Assembly: GCA_020852815.1 (NCBI GenBank)
Contig: JADZAN010000002.1
Location: 372,001-436,000, forward strand
Length of the DNA stretch: 64,000 nt
Source: Gemmatimonadaceae bacterium
GTDB taxonomy: Bacteria > Gemmatimonadota > Gemmatimonadetes > Gemmatimonadales > Gemmatimonadaceae
Reading direction: 5' to 3'
Below are positions 28,577-35,351 of this stretch, one piece after another (position 1 is the first letter of the stretch; every line of letters starts with the position of its first letter). Position numbers and translations under genes: made by a program. Under the pieces are notes generated by a model. The model saw only the letters and a list, made by a program, of their open reading frames with translations. It ran no database searches and had not been told where the DNA came from.

Positions 28577-30481
28577 CTACGAGCGCAGGACCTCGAGCGC
28601 CAGCGAGACCTTTCCGAACGGCGCCGAGACCTGGACGCCTTGCACGTCGCTCCTCACGAGCGAGAGCATCTCGCGCGCGATGGCGATTCCTTCCTGCAGT
28701 GCGTGTTCGGCCGACTGCTGGTTGGCGCGTCGCATGCGGTGCAGGATCTCCTCGGGGACGACGACGCCCGGCACCTCGTTGGCGAGGAACTCCGCGTTGC
28801 GCAGCGAGACTAGCGGCCAGATGCCGGCAACGATCGGGACATGCGACGACCCGAGCTCGCGCAGGAAGCGCTCGAGCTGGCGCGAGTCGAAGACCGGTTG
28901 CGTAATGGCGAACTCGGCGCCGGCATCCACCTTGTAGTCGAAGCGCCGGCGCTCGAGTGCGGGGTCGATTGCGGCCGGGTTGACGCCCACGCCGATCGTG
29001 TAGCGCGTTGGCGCCCCGATCGGGTTGCCGCCCGGGTCCAGTCCGCGATTGAGGTTGCGCACCAGGTTCGTGAGGCCGATCGAGTCGATGTCGAAGACGG
29101 CGGTGGCGTCGGGGTATGGCCCCATCTTGGGCGGGTCGCCGGTGATGAGGAGGAGGTTGTGCAGTCCCATCGCTGCGCCGCCTAACAAGTCGGAGAGCAT
29201 CCCCAGCAGGTTGCGGTCGCGGCAGGCGTAGTGGCACACCGCCTCGATGCCCACCTGCTGCTCGATGAGGAGCGACGTCATCATCGCCCCCATCCGGCTC
29301 TGCGCGCGCGGCCCGTCGGGTACGTTGACCGCATCGACCCCCGCCGTCTTCAGCGCGCGCACGTCCTCCAGCATGCGCGAGGCGTCCACCCCGCGTGGCG
29401 GGACGATCTCGACGGAGGAGACAAACTGCTGTGTGGCGAGCTTGTGCCCCCAGTTGCTCCGCTCTCCCAGCGGCACCGGATGCACCCCCGCATGCTTGCT
29501 CACCGCGCGCTCACCGACGGCGAGCACACTCCCGTCCCCCGACGCCCGTCCCCCGTCCTTTCGCTTCAGCGATCGCGGCACCAGCGGACGGATCCCCTCC
29601 ACCATGGCGCGGATGTGCGCCGGCGTGGTCCCGCAGCACCCGCCGATCACCTTGGCGCCTGCCTGCAACAGGTGGCGCGCGTAGGTGGCCATGTACTCGG
29701 GGCTCGCCATGTACATCTTGCGCCCGCCCACCTCGCGCGGCATGCCGGCGTTAGGCATCGCGCTCAACTTGCGACGTGTGCTGGCCGCCATCTTCTCGAT
29801 CGCCTCGAGGATGATCTGCGGCCCCACGGAGCAATTGAGCCCGATGACGTCGGCGCCCAGGGCGTCGAGCGACTCGGCGATGTCCTCGGGCCGCATCCCG
29901 AAGATCGTGACGCCCTCGACGTCGACCGTCATCTGTGCGATGAGCGGGAGCTCGGGGGCCACCGAGCGCGCGGCGAGGATCGCCTGCGAGATCTCGTCGA
30001 GGTCGGCGAACGTCTCGAGGATGAGGCAATCCACTCCGCCATCGCGCAGCGCGGCGACCTGCTCCTCGAAGGCGGCGCGCGCCTCCTCGAGCGAGGTGGG
30101 ACCGTACGGCTCCAGCCGCACGCCTAACGGGCCAATGGCCCCTGCCACCAGGACGGCGTCGAGCGCCGCCTCGCGCGCGATGGTCGCCGCGGCGCGGTTG
30201 ATCGCCGCTACCTCCTTCTCGAGCCCGAAGTTGGCCAGCTTGAATCGGTTGGCGCCGAACGAGTTGGTCTCCAGCACCTCGGCGCCGGCCTTTACGTACT
30301 CCTCGTGCACGCCGCGCACGAGGTCGGGCGCGCGCAACGAGAGCTCGTCGTAACACTGGTTGATGAAGACGCCACGCTGGTAGAGCATGGTCCCCATGGC
30401 GCCATCGAAGACGAGGACCGCGTCGGGGTCGGTGATGCGCTCGCGAAGTGCGGCGCGGTCGGAACGTGCGCCCTCGATCAC
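28577..30481 (-). CDS. Bifunctional homocysteine S-methyltransferase / methylenetetrahydrofolate reductase
   Basis: A 634-residue fusion of the type known from Bacillus YitJ. Residues 1-300 are a zinc homocysteine S-methyltransferase: DGAMGTMLY near the start, zinc ligand Cys217 in GLNCSVGP, and Cys282-Cys283 in GGCCGTTP. A low-complexity linker (about 300-345) joins it to a MetF-type (beta/alpha)8 barrel (about 350-630) with FVSSVEIVPPRG, LLLITGDPPK, GVGVNPAA and ITQPVFD. The reductase makes 5-methyl-THF for MetH, encoded upstream. The start is a GTG at 30481; no good ATG precedes the homology. The linker DNA contains GACGGG-type repeats also found in metH. It may be read from the SAM-II-controlled metH transcript, though 200 bases and one gene intervene. 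Confidence 0.95.
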   Translation of the reverse strand: MIEGARSDRAALRERITDPDAVLVFDGAMGTMLYQRGVFINQCYDELSLRAPDLVRGVHEEYVKAGAEVLETNSFGANRFKLANFGLEKEVAAINRAAATIAREAALDAVLVAGAIGPLGVRLEPYGPTSLEEARAAFEEQVAALRDGGVDCLILETFADLDEISQAILAARSVAPELPLIAQMTVDVEGVTIFGMRPEDIAESLDALGADVIGLNCSVGPQIILEAIEKMAASTRRKLSAMPNAGMPREVGGRKMYMASPEYMATYARHLLQAGAKVIGGCCGTTPAHIRAMVEGIRPLVPRSLKRKDGGRASGDGSVLAVGERAVSKHAGVHPVPLGERSNWGHKLATQQFVSSVEIVPPRGVDASRMLEDVRALKTAGVDAVNVPDGPRAQSRMGAMMTSLLIEQQVGIEAVCHYACRDRNLLGMLSDLLGGAAMGLHNLLLITGDPPKMGPYPDATAVFDIDSIGLTNLVRNLNRGLDPGGNPIGAPTRYTIGVGVNPAAIDPALERRRFDYKVDAGAEFAITQPVFDSRQLERFLRELGSSHVPIVAGIWPLVSLRNAEFLANEVPGVVVPEEILHRMRRANQQSAEHALQEGIAIAREMLSLVRSDVQGVQVSAPFGKVSLALEVLRS

Positions 30482-30683: not shown

Positions 30684-31472
30684 CTAATTACGTCTTGCCA
30701 AGCGACACCGAACGATGGCGGTCGTGAACTCCCGGTTCCAGCGCCGGTGCACGGAGCGAAGTTTGCGGATGGGGACCGTCTCGATCCACTCGAGCGAGAA
30801 TCGTGACTGCGCCACGATCCGTTCGAAGCGCGCGATCGTCATCCCGTTCAGCCCTCCAGTGACCTCGCGAAACCTCGTGGCGCCATCCGACCTGAGGTCG
30901 GAGCGCCAGCGCAACAACGCCTTCTCACTGAATACCAGGTGCGCCCAAGGGAACACGGAGAGCATGTGCGCGCCGTATGGGTGGAACCAGGTGGGGCCGA
31001 AACTGGCGATGATCTTTCCGTTCGGCACAAGCAAGTTGTGCATCTCCTCCAGGACGGCGCTCGGGTCGTTGAAGTGCTCGAACGAGTCGATGCTTACCAC
31101 GTACTCGGCAGGTGCACTCGCTCGAATCGAGAATCGGCACTTCGAGGACAGCCCTTCGGCCTCGGCCTGGGCGCGCGCGCGAGCGAGAAGGTCTGTCTGG
31201 ATGTCGACGCCCTCGACGTGTGCGGCGACTTTCGCCAGTTCGAGCGCTTCATGTCCCTCGCCACATCCGAAGTCGATGACCGAGCGACCCCGCACCTCCT
31301 CGAGCAGCGCGCTGCCGAGCAGGACTTGCAACTTGCTCTTTCCCGCGTACGCACTTCCGTCCATGGATGTCGGCTCGCTCGGAGCGATTCGCCGCAGCAA
31401 GCGGTACTGCACGCCATCGAACAAACTCGCCTCCTCGCACCGTGTGGTTGGCTGTTCACGCGCAGGAATCAT
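30684..31472 (-). CDS. Class I SAM-dependent methyltransferase, lower-GC island between metH and metF
   Basis: A 262-residue class I methyltransferase (Methyltransf_11/23 type). Motif I is VIDFGCGEGHEA (about 80), followed by VEGVDIQ at the end of strand 2, VVSIDSFEHFNDP (motif with catalytic-site region) and LLVPNGKIIASFGP. The C-terminal part (WFHPYGAHMLSVFPWAHLVFSE) resembles glycan or small-molecule methyltransferases; the acceptor is unknown. The ATG at 31472 is chosen because sequence upstream in frame overlaps the metH stop. The gene is visibly less GC-rich than metH and metF, with more A/T at third positions, and has no functional tie to methionine synthesis beyond using SAM. That suggests a later insertion. 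Confidence 0.85.
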   Translation of the reverse strand: MIPAREQPTTRCEEASLFDGVQYRLLRRIAPSEPTSMDGSAYAGKSKLQVLLGSALLEEVRGRSVIDFGCGEGHEALELAKVAAHVEGVDIQTDLLARARAQAEAEGLSSKCRFSIRASAPAEYVVSIDSFEHFNDPSAVLEEMHNLLVPNGKIIASFGPTWFHPYGAHMLSVFPWAHLVFSEKALLRWRSDLRSDGATRFREVTGGLNGMTIARFERIVAQSRFSLEWIETVPIRKLRSVHRRWNREFTTAIVRCRLARRN

Positions 31473-31567: not shown

Positions 31568-34500
31568 TCACTCTCCCCGCACCGCGTAGTACTTGGCCTC
31601 CGGATGGTGCACGATGAGCGCCGCCGTCGACTGCTCGGGGATCAGCTGCCTGGCCGAGGTGAGCGACATGCCTAACGCATCCACCGGGAGGAGCCGGAAG
31701 ACCACGTCGTGGTCGTCCAGGTCGGGGCAGGCGCCGTATCCCCACGAGTAGCGCTTCCCGCGGCCCGCGGGGACGCCCAGCTCGGCGCGTATGCGGCGGT
31801 GAAGCCACTCGGCCGTCGCTTCTGCCGCCTCCACCGAAAGCCCATGGGAATAGAACGCCTCGGTGTACTCGCCCTTCGCCTGCAGCTCCTCGAACCGGCG
31901 CGTGGCGGCGTCGCCGACGGTGACCACCTGCAAGGCGATCACGTCCACGTCGCCCGACTCGACCGAGCGGAAGTAGTCCGCCAGGCACAACCGGTCGCGC
32001 CCTTCCTGCCGCGGGAAGTGGAAGCGCGCCACCTCACGCAACGATCCGCCGTCGGCCTCCCACGCGTCGGGGTCGTACACGATCACCTCGTTGCCGCTGG
32101 ACTGTACGGGGAAATACCCGTAGGCGGCCTGCGGGACGAGCCAGCCATCGCGCTCGGCCTCGCCCTTGAGGCGAGCGAGCACCGGCTCGAACTCCGTGCG
32201 CACGGTGTGCTCGTACGCCTCGCCCGAGCCGCGCGCCCCCCATTGCAGGCGGTACAGCTCGTCGAGATCGAGGAGGTCGAGCACCTCGCCTAACGGGATG
32301 TCGCGCAACAGGCGCGTGCCAAGGAAGGGGGCCTCGGGAATGGCATGATCCGCGGAGACGCTCGATCGCTCCCCGCCCGCATCGCCGCGGGCAACGTCCT
32401 TCCCCACGCCGCTGTGCAGGAAGACGTCGGCGCGTGCGTCCGCCAGCTGCTTGGCGACGAATCCCGCGCGCTGCGCCGGGTCCTGGAGCCGGTCCATCGT
32501 CTCCAACCCCTCGAACGCGTCCTTGCAATAGAAGACGCCGGCATCGAAGGGGCGCTCCCCATCGACGAAGAGCGCGCGCCGCCCGAAACGCCGGTTGATC
32601 GCCGCCCCCCCGATGAGCACCGGCAGCTGCACACCGCGGCGATCCAGCTCCTGCACGCACATCGGCATCTGCTTCGACGTGCTCACCAGGAGCGCCGACA
32701 ACCCGATGGCATCGGCCTTCACCTCGAGCGCCTTCTCGATGATCGTGTTGACCGGGACCTGCTTCCCCAGGTCGTACACGGTATACCCGTTGTTGGAGAG
32801 GATCGTGTTGACGAGCGACTTGCCGATGTCGTGCACGTCGCCGTACACCGTCGCCAGCACCACGCGCCCCTTGGTGTAGCCCTCCTGCTTCTCGAGGAAC
32901 GACTCGAGGTGCTTCACCGCCTTCTTCATCACCTCGGCCGATTGCAGCACGAAGGGAAGGATGAGTTCTCCCGCGCCGAACTTGTCGCCCACCTCCTTCA
33001 TCGCCGGGAGCAACACCTCGTTGAGCACCTGCACCGGCCGCTCGCGCACCCCCGCCGCATCCAGCGCCTCCTCGATCCCCTCCTTCTTGCGGTGCACGAC
33101 CATCCAGTGCACCCGCGCTTCCGGCGTCATTCCCTCGGTTGGGTCGGCGCGCAGCGCCACTCCCGTCTCCCGTCCCTCGTCTCCCGTCCCCTTGTCGAAG
33201 TGTTCGATGAATCGTTGCAGCGCATCCGGGCGCTTGTTGAACACGAGGTCGTCGGCGAGCGCGCGTTCCGCCGCCGAGATCTCCGCGTAGGGCGTGACGT
33301 GCGCCGGGTTGACGATGGCGGCATCGAGCCCGGCCTGCACGCAATGGTGCAGGAAGACCGAGTTCAGGACGGCGCGCGCCCCAGGGGCCAGCCCGAAGCT
33401 CACGTTGGAGACGCCGAGGATCGTGAGCACGCCCGGCAATTCGCGCTTGATGAGGCGGATGCCCTCGATGGTCTCGTGCGCCGAGTCGATCCACTCGACG
33501 TCGCCGGTAGCAAGGGTGAAGGTGAGGGCGTCGAAGACGAGGTCCGACGGCTGCATGCCGTACTCGCCCACGACGATGTCGTGGATCGCGCGCGCCACCT
33601 CGAGCTTCCGCTCCCGCGTGCGCGCCATCCCGACCGGGTCGATCGTGAGGGCCACGAGGGCGGCGCCGTGCGTGATGGCCATGGGGACGATCGCGTCGAT
33701 GCGGGCGCGACCGTTCTCCATGTTGATCGAGTTGATGATCGCCCGCCCCGGAACGTGCTCGAGCGCCGCCTTGATGACGCCCGCCTCGGTCGAGTCGATC
33801 ATGAGCGGCGTCTCGACCGACATCGACAGGAGCTTCGCCACGGTCGCCATCTGCGCCGCCTCATCCGCCCGCTCGGTGAGGGCAACGCAGACGTCGAGGA
33901 CGTGGGCCCCCGACTCGGCCTGTTCGCGCGCGACCTCCACGATCCCCTCGTAATCATCCGCCAGGAGCAAGCGCTTGACCTTGCGTGACCCCTGGGCGTT
34001 CACCCGTTCGCCCACGAGGAGCGGGGGGGGCGACTGGTGCAGGGTGATCGCGCGCATGGCGGAGGAGGCGCGCGGGACGTGGTGATGAGCGCGCGGCGAG
34101 CCGGTGGCGCCGGAGGCTGTCGTCGCGAACGGCGCTCGCACCCCCAGCGCGTCCACCGCGTCGTTGATCGCCTTGAGGTGCTCCGGCGTCGTCCCGCAGC
34201 ACCCTCCCACGATCCGCACCCCGAAGTCGCGCACGAACTCCCCCAGCATCGCCGCCATCGCCGCCGGCTCCAGCGGGTATACCGCGTCTCCCGTCCCGGT
34301 GTTCAGCGGCAATCCGGCGTTTGGAACCACCGAGACCGGGCGCGTCGCGTGCTGCGACAGATAACGCACCGGCTCGCGCATGTGCTCGGGCCCTGTGGAG
34401 CAGTTGAGCCCGATCACGTCCACGCCTAACGACTCCAGCGTCGTCATCGCGCTGGCAATGTCGGTCCCCAGCAGCATGCGCCCGCTGGTGTCGAGCGTGA

Positions 34501-35143
34501 CCTGCGCCTGCACCGGGAGGCGCCAGCCGAGTTCGCGGAACAGGCGCGCGAAGCCGGCCAGCGCCGCCTTCACCTCGAGGATGTCCTGCGACGTCTCCAC
34601 CAGCAGGACGTCCACCCCACCTTCCACGAGGTACTTCGCCTGCCAGTAGAAGTCGTTGCTCAACGCCTCGAACGTCACGTTGGAGAGCGCCGGGTCGCTG
34701 CTCGACGGGAGCATCCCGGTGGGCCCGATCGACGCGGCGACGAAGCGCGGACGCTCGCTGGTGGCGTACGCATCGCACGCCGCTCGCGCCAGGCGGGCCG
34801 CCGCCACGTTGATCTCGCGCACCTTGTCCCCCAACCCCCACTCCTCCAGGCGGCGCGGCGTCGACTGGAAGGTGCACGTCTCCACCACATCGCTCCCCAC
34901 CGCGAGGAACGACTCGTGGATCGCCTGGATCACATCGGGGCGCGTCAGCACCAGGTGGTCGTTGCACCCCTCGAGCGACTTTCCGCCGTAGTCTTCCGCG
35001 GTCAGGTGATAGCGCTGGATGTTGGTCCCCATCGCGCCGTCATACACGAGCACCCCGCGCGCCAGCGCGTCCAGGTAGCCGGAGCGAACGGGGAGGTGAA
35101 AGGCGTTGGCGATGTTCGGCGTGGAGCGGGCGTCGTCGGACAA
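31568..35143 (-). CDS. metH: Cobalamin-dependent methionine synthase
   Basis: A 1191-residue MetH with all four modules. The homocysteine-binding barrel has Cys248 in GLNCSTGP and Cys315-Cys316 in GGCCGTTP. The 5-methyl-THF (pterin) barrel (about 365-640) has LLVGERVNAQGSRK. The cobalamin module has His771 in GDVHDIGKS, supplying the lower axial ligand. The C-terminal activation domain (about 920-1191) has YSWGYGACPDLDDH. It transfers the methyl group of 5-methyl-THF to homocysteine. The start is a TTG at 35143, supported by GAGG six bases upstream. Interdomain linkers are longer and more repetitive than usual (around 340-360 and 650-665). A SAM-II riboswitch and T-run terminator precede it, so it is probably repressed when SAM is plentiful. 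Confidence 0.97.
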   Translation of the reverse strand: MSDDARSTPNIANAFHLPVRSGYLDALARGVLVYDGAMGTNIQRYHLTAEDYGGKSLEGCNDHLVLTRPDVIQAIHESFLAVGSDVVETCTFQSTPRRLEEWGLGDKVREINVAAARLARAACDAYATSERPRFVAASIGPTGMLPSSSDPALSNVTFEALSNDFYWQAKYLVEGGVDVLLVETSQDILEVKAALAGFARLFRELGWRLPVQAQVTLDTSGRMLLGTDIASAMTTLESLGVDVIGLNCSTGPEHMREPVRYLSQHATRPVSVVPNAGLPLNTGTGDAVYPLEPAAMAAMLGEFVRDFGVRIVGGCCGTTPEHLKAINDAVDALGVRAPFATTASGATGSPRAHHHVPRASSAMRAITLHQSPPPLLVGERVNAQGSRKVKRLLLADDYEGIVEVAREQAESGAHVLDVCVALTERADEAAQMATVAKLLSMSVETPLMIDSTEAGVIKAALEHVPGRAIINSINMENGRARIDAIVPMAITHGAALVALTIDPVGMARTRERKLEVARAIHDIVVGEYGMQPSDLVFDALTFTLATGDVEWIDSAHETIEGIRLIKRELPGVLTILGVSNVSFGLAPGARAVLNSVFLHHCVQAGLDAAIVNPAHVTPYAEISAAERALADDLVFNKRPDALQRFIEHFDKGTGDEGRETGVALRADPTEGMTPEARVHWMVVHRKKEGIEEALDAAGVRERPVQVLNEVLLPAMKEVGDKFGAGELILPFVLQSAEVMKKAVKHLESFLEKQEGYTKGRVVLATVYGDVHDIGKSLVNTILSNNGYTVYDLGKQVPVNTIIEKALEVKADAIGLSALLVSTSKQMPMCVQELDRRGVQLPVLIGGAAINRRFGRRALFVDGERPFDAGVFYCKDAFEGLETMDRLQDPAQRAGFVAKQLADARADVFLHSGVGKDVARGDAGGERSSVSADHAIPEAPFLGTRLLRDIPLGEVLDLLDLDELYRLQWGARGSGEAYEHTVRTEFEPVLARLKGEAERDGWLVPQAAYGYFPVQSSGNEVIVYDPDAWEADGGSLREVARFHFPRQEGRDRLCLADYFRSVESGDVDVIALQVVTVGDAATRRFEELQAKGEYTEAFYSHGLSVEAAEATAEWLHRRIRAELGVPAGRGKRYSWGYGACPDLDDHDVVFRLLPVDALGMSLTSARQLIPEQSTAALIVHHPEAKYYAVRGE

Positions 35144-35154
35144 GGCGATCCTCG

Positions 35155-35175
35155 AAAAAAAAAGAGCCCAGGGCT
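35155..35175 (-). terminator. Hairpin plus nine-T run in the metH leader
   Basis: On the minus strand AGCC-CTG-GGCT (35175-35165) is followed by C and nine T (35163-35155), ending one base before the metH Shine-Dalgarno. It is the only long T run noticed in the window. With the SAM-II aptamer just upstream, it is probably the expression platform (intrinsic terminator). The stem is short, so bases from the neighbouring GCGCC/GGCGC segment (35181-35195) may take part. Confidence 0.65.
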
Positions 35176-35189
35176 GAAGGGCGCCGGGC

Positions 35190-35245
35190 GGGCGCTTTAG
35201 CGAGTTGTTTTACGTGGCCGCAATTTGCCGGGAAATCGCCACGAT
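35190..35245 (-). ncRNA. SAM-II (SAM-alpha) riboswitch aptamer upstream of metH
   Basis: The leader matches the SAM-II fold, an H-type pseudoknot that binds S-adenosylmethionine. P1 is CGTGGC (35243-35238) paired with GCCACG (35218-35213). The P1 loop begins GATTT (35237-35233) and ends in ATTGCG, as in known SAM-II loops. The 3' tail has TAAAA (35212-35208) and GCTAAAG (35201-35195), the conserved pseudoknot/triplex strand. Order, spacing and conserved words agree with the family (Rfam SAM_alpha), known mainly from Alphaproteobacteria and Bacteroidetes ahead of methionine genes. It lies 47 bases before the metH TTG start, with a terminator between. Assigned from memory of the consensus; a covariance-model score was not run. 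Confidence 0.87.
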
Positions 35246-35351
35246 CATGCAATTGTCACAGGACGCGGCCAGGAGTCGCTCAACGCCCTGCGTATGGAGG
35301 AATAGCGAATGGGGGCGCCGCCGACAAGCGCGCCCTCTCGACGCGCGGCGT

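Follow-up and report, generated by a model that had tools for sequence, protein, structure and literature searches.

The SAM-II riboswitch of A. tumefaciens metA (RF00521; PMC1273637) combines a P1 hairpin, a GAUUU...UUGC loop, an L3 segment, the motif GCUAAA and a P2 pseudoknot, and many known members of this family are followed by intrinsic terminators and by methionine genes. The SAM_alpha regulon reconstructed in Proteobacteria has metY at its core and extends to hom, metA, metX, metC and metW (PMC4239095). For the S. meliloti metZ element a SAM-dependent Rho-independent terminator has been predicted directly behind the aptamer (PMC9373788), whereas the metX element from the Sargasso Sea (PDB 2QWY, cited in PMC10907184) hides the ribosome site. 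We describe here a metH leader in which all of the A. tumefaciens elements recur, on the minus strand of a 64,000-nt stretch of a Gemmatimonadaceae genome (the window), and which differs from the known RF00521 members in its Gemmatimonadota host and in having metH as the main target. With metZ it shares a terminator directly behind the aptamer, although gene and phylum differ; with metX it shares the core, but it precedes a terminator instead of hiding a ribosome site. The SAM-II long-loop family (RF01726) also has the same core and departs from the window in its loop and in its tail, GAGUCGGG, which has a matching CCCCGCACUC in the terminator arm.

Since SAM-II is a known class and the metZ terminator had already been predicted, the window holds a new member of that class; what is new is the lineage, the targets and the antiterminator wiring, while the riboswitch class itself is known. 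In the one open-access library that we searched, SAM-II was not recorded in Gemmatimonadota or Gemmatimonas, and this lineage, metH as the main target and an antiterminator drawn from either P2 strand were all unreported.

A cmscan of the 64 kb against 4227 Rfam families gave one match above threshold, to RF00521, at 35252-35176 of the minus strand with 40.6 bits (E 1.1e-5; gathering score 36), and none at gathering score to RF01726. The first-pass annotation had recognized SAM-II in this leader from its P1 arms, a loop running from GATTT to ATTGCG, TAAAA and GCTAAAG, and had proposed a covariance-model search as a check; every one of these motifs is in place on the minus strand (Table 1), and the assignment is now backed by the covariance model, by homologous leaders and by pseudoknot covariation. 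The P1 stem encloses a GAUUU...UUGC loop, as SAM-II requires, and the aptamer belongs to a class with a 9-nt loop. When the entire leader was first folded, it proved no more stable than its shuffles, as one would expect of a GC-rich sequence with a pseudoknot. On the strength of these sequence comparisons the metH leader is a genuine SAM-II riboswitch, predicted to bind SAM.

Table 1. Features of the metH leader and neighbouring genes (positions in the window)
Feature	Position	Strand	Basis
Candidate promoter TTGTCG-17 nt-TATTCC	35299..35327	-	predicted; similar block in same-genus G002
SAM-II (SAM_alpha, RF00521) aptamer	35176..35252	-	cmscan and search of own whole assembly
P1 hairpin, CGTGGC 35243-35238 / GCCACG 35218-35213	35213..35243	-	sequence
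Aptamer loop GATTTCCCGGCAAATTGC (GATTT...ATTGCG)	35237-35220	-	sequence
L3	35212-35202	-	sequence
Conserved GCTAAA (GCUAAA), within GCTAAAG	35201-35196	-	sequence
P2b pseudoknot, loop GGC 35229-35227 with tail GCC 35193-35191; spans GCTAAA	35191..35229	-	covariation in relatives
Proposed antiterminator, GCGCC 35195-35191 with GGCGC 35185-35181	35181..35195	-	nascent-RNA folding, conserved complementarity
Terminator stem, GCCCGG 35189-35184 / CUGGGC 35171-35166, plus two inner pairs	35166..35189	-	folding
U9 (T9) tract of terminator	35155..35163	-	sequence
Shine-Dalgarno GAGG of metH	35150..35153	-	sequence; kept in same-genus leader TCGAGGATCTCC-GTG
metH, cobalamin-dependent methionine synthase, 1191 aa, TTG start (35143)	31568..35143	-	TIGR02082
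Class I SAM-dependent methyltransferase gene (start predicted)	30684..31424	-	Pfam Methyltransf_23/11
bhmT-metF, bifunctional homocysteine S-methyltransferase / methylenetetrahydrofolate reductase	28577..30481	-	NF006396 723 bits, cut-off 453

Because the Rfam alignment pairs only P1, the P2 pseudoknot provides an independent test of the assignment. Among leaders with an 8-nt loop, the native sequences pair 300 of 321 P2b cells and their shuffles 258 (sd 4.6), and the variable pair is G-C in 57, C-G in 31 and A-U in 4 of the 107; in the 9-nt class, which is that of the window, 56 of 57 cells are paired. In neither class did any of 2000 shuffles reach the native value, a permutation control that overstates independence because the leaders are related by descent. 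The 7-nt class does not fit this register, and a shifted register pairs 49 of its 57 cells with no excess over shuffles. The H-type pseudoknot between the loop and the 3' tail is supported by this covariation. P1 is nearly invariant, with 871 of 876 cells paired in 146 unique relatives. The compensatory changes for which the first-pass annotation would have compared related metH leaders do occur in it, thinly: one full compensation, CGAGGC/GCCTCG in L027, is joined by the long-loop relatives, whose P1 reads, by eye, GGTGG/CCACC and CGAGG/CCTCG.

Counting matches at E <= 0.001, SAM-II is present in 58 of 60 near relatives (53 over the cut-off), in 239 of 394 genomes of the class and in 202 of 298 genomes drawn from the phylum, with no match in 14 control genomes, so that an occurrence that had been put forward as worth documenting in this lineage is anything but solitary. 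At the orthologous position in front of metH, 17 of 22 named metH relatives carry the element by a strict pattern and the other five carry it as a variant. SAM-I (RF00162) was found in 4 of the 60 relatives and is absent from this genome, and SAM-II is the order's usual SAM riboswitch and, apparently, the usual SAM sensor of the phylum. The gene downstream is metH for 81 of 156 distinct leaders; when targets were clustered, with each cluster named from one member, the others were threonine synthase and homoserine dehydrogenase (9 each), metF and the cystathionine gamma-synthase family (8 each), panB and a RimK-like ATP-grasp gene (7 each), metX (5) and smaller groups. Most leaders outside metH precede methionine or homoserine pathway genes, and in this genome a second SAM-II copy lies before a homoserine dehydrogenase gene, so both copies stand in front of methionine/SAM pathway genes.

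Some of these associations merit separate mention. The gene panB (ketopantoate hydroxymethyltransferase), found behind SAM-II in L003, L043, L046, L051, L137, L172 and L189, is an unusual target. The RimK-like ATP-grasp gene follows SAM-II, mostly with a terminator, in L142, L153, L175, L181, L187, L188 and L195, and a role for it in methionine metabolism is not obvious. SAM-I and SAM-II occur in one genome in G047 and G040 (over cut-off) and in G042 and G008 (below), the SAM-II match of G040 lying below its own cut-off; a 2007 survey counted zero species with both (PMC2258182).

The metH product scores 1079 bits against TIGR02082 (cut-off 1010.85) and is the only one in the assembly to exceed that cut-off. 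Its 22 best matches are 74-80% identical, and with one exception their source MAGs bear the label Gemmatimonadetes, Gemmatimonadota or that of a subgroup, in many cases Gemmatimonadaceae, which bears out the earlier description of the genome as Gemmatimonadota-like. The metH-methyltransferase-metF stretch proposed at the same time has to be redrawn, since its metF is a fused homocysteine S-methyltransferase/MTHFR gene. This bhmT-metF directly adjoins metH in the named relatives with enough flanking sequence and in the same-genus genome G002, with no methyltransferase gene between the two, and thus the unit that relatives conserve is metH-bhmT-metF, into which the methyltransferase gene has been inserted locally. 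A search for terminator-like sites from 31700 to 28300 gave none, and the intergenic gaps along the three genes are roughly 140 and 200 nt. The fused gene is probably under the same switch as metH, by presumed co-transcription.

An intrinsic terminator with a hairpin of -12.0 kcal/mol sits between the aptamer and metH, and its stem recurs unchanged, with a different loop, in the same-genus leaders L021 and L238. The first-pass annotation had described a small hairpin followed by nine T just ahead of the ribosome site; the nine T are present, with GAGG and then the TTG start downstream, and the hairpin exists too, but its stem is larger than that description implied. The inference of a transcriptional expression platform gains support from the retention of the terminator in relatives, those of the same genus included. 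A simple terminator scan missed this hairpin, probably because its loop exceeds the 8-nt limit of the scanner. A sigma-70 promoter scan found nothing; in G002 a block TTGCCC-N17-TATTCC, with the same 17-nt spacing as the candidate promoter of the window, lies upstream of the aptamer.

Stepwise folding of the nascent RNA makes GCGCC:GGCGC the first stable structure as the transcript grows (-8.9 kcal/mol), and the terminator replaces it only once the terminator 3' arm emerges. When transcription has reached the end of the stem, the outer terminator pairs have a mean probability of 0.61 with the tail free and 0.96 with the tail held in the way that a SAM-bound P2 would hold it, and with the full U tract these values become 0.07 and 0.83-1.0, a contrast to be read with caution, since the fold that competes there also consists of a hairpin with U's behind it. 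In that fold, the minimum for the full length with a free tail, a longer hairpin pairs AAAG with part of the U tract; it still leaves U's behind, and it might also terminate. The pairing proposed as a 5-bp antiterminator is present and is conserved, not covarying, within the window's subtype, and thermodynamics alone does not decide whether it and the SAM-bound aptamer are mutually exclusive.

If SAM is absent, the tail GCGCC, which lies 3' of GCUAAA, would pair with GGCGC in the terminator 5' arm, and this pairing would delay the terminator long enough for RNA polymerase to read into metH. If SAM is bound, the tail would instead be held in the P2 pseudoknot, its GCC paired with the GGC of the loop, and the released arm would allow GCCCGG/CUGGGC and U9 to form, stopping transcription just ahead of the ribosome site. 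The direction of the switch, OFF with SAM, is taken from the stabilization of P2 by SAM (PMC9373788, PMC10907184), supplemented by our own inference. We consider it likely that the riboswitch represses metH, and probably bhmT-metF too, through SAM-dependent transcription termination. For this putative OFF switch we infer that the RNA binds SAM, that control is kinetic, that transcripts end there in the cell and that the genes are co-transcribed.

The same wiring can be followed across the 156 leaders. A terminator was defined as a hairpin with a folding energy of -8 kcal/mol or lower and, behind it, 5 or more T in 9; 145 of the leaders have one, whereas first-order resampling of the sequences yields 55 of 156. 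In 119 of those 145 the terminator 5' arm contains a perfect complement of at least 5 nt to the aptamer tail or loop, usually to the tail as in the window, where 39.5 would be expected from shuffled arms. Sorted by tail, the leaders fall into type A (nnGCC), type B (nnGCG or nnGCA) and type C (GCGC, the type of the window). Types A and C mostly use tail pairing, while in type B pairing to the loop dominates (32 of 40 against 9.6 expected; GCCGCC:GGCGGC is an example). Loop and arm hexamers of type B covary: loops with GCCGCG have the arm CGCGGC in 5 of 7 cases and GGCGGC in none, and loops with GCCGCC have GGCGGC in 16 of 26 and CGCGGC in 2 (Fisher p 0.0006, kinship of the leaders ignored). 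Swapping arms within a type weakens the loop pairing of types B and C (0 of 100 swaps reach the native value) and the tail pairing of type A (2 of 100). The type C tail, which is constant, shows no excess (51 of 100), and its pairing energy is -8.59 kcal/mol against -6.11 (sd 0.30) with shuffled arms. In the nascent RNA, 67 of 78 type A and C leaders pair the tail downstream, with a gain of about 6 kcal/mol. Equilibrium folding gives the terminator the advantage in most relatives even when the tail is free (mean 0.85-0.87), and the switch would therefore need kinetic control; modelled in this way, the equilibrium terminator and the nascent tail pairing fit kinetic, co-transcriptional control. 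On balance we lean towards the view that SAM-II senses SAM throughout Gemmatimonadota and that its two expression platforms are interchangeable, so that the antiterminator would be drawn from the 3' strand of P2 (the tail) or from its 5' strand (the loop).

Other readings of the locus can be set against this evidence. The score of the aptamer is just 4.6 bits over the gathering score, and a GC-rich leader might resemble the SAM_alpha model by chance; such a coincidence is scarcely credible, however, for an element that keeps its orthologous position in relatives, finds no match in the control genomes, covaries in P2 and has pathway-specific neighbours. If the element is real, it could act on translation in the manner of the Sargasso Sea metX element, with a SAM-bound P2 or a downstream fold masking the ribosome site of metH. 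Translational control is thought to operate in SAM-II elsewhere (PMC9373788, PMC10907184), and some leaders (L034, L037-L039) have a start codon right behind the tail and no terminator. In the window, by contrast, GAGG lies about 37 nt past the P2 tail, behind U9 and outside the aptamer, and a terminator conserved within the genus intervenes, which makes control of translation unlikely here.

A further alternative is that the aptamer is real and the hairpin with T9 is a constitutive attenuator uncoupled from SAM. Most relatives do favour the terminator at equilibrium whether the tail is held or not, and the S. meliloti metA riboswitch has a terminator without a predictable riboswitch-driven antiterminator (PMC9373788). 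Against uncoupling, which we judge quite unlikely, stands the complementarity between the P2 strands and the terminator 5' arm, which is conserved, partly covarying and well above chance. SAM-dependent termination remains our preferred reading.

With these leaders SAM-II, a riboswitch mainly of Alphaproteobacteria, extends into a large phylum whose members are mostly uncultured, and there metH becomes its main target. Transcription switching by SAM-II is predicted and, according to the literature searched, little tested, and the many natural leaders with matched loops, tails and terminator arms form a ready set for in vitro work.

Several metH leaders depart from the common form. In L034, L037, L038 and L039, translation control is likely because the start codon abuts the SAM-II tail (GCUAAAACGCCAGGAUGAC) and there is no terminator; the mode of SAM-II control changes within the order. 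Upstream of metH in L060, L062, L065, L073 and L077 (about 1350-1435 of each locus) lies a SAM-II-like element with a changed L3, UUAAUCC or CUAAUCC...GCUAAA and without AAACAA, which scores at most 26 bits, under the Rfam cut-off, and has no listed match in L062; judged by their sequence, these leaders are possibly a divergent SAM-II variant. In other Gemmatimonadota, metH is preceded by the RF01726 form (45.0 bits in L084, 43.1 bits in L101), and this long-loop form or one near it is found upstream of metH in L084, L087, L095, L101 and L116, some of them labelled Longimicrobium, with the tail GAGUCGGG or GUGUCGGG; in most of them the terminator arm carries a stretch resembling CCCCGCAC that matches the tail.
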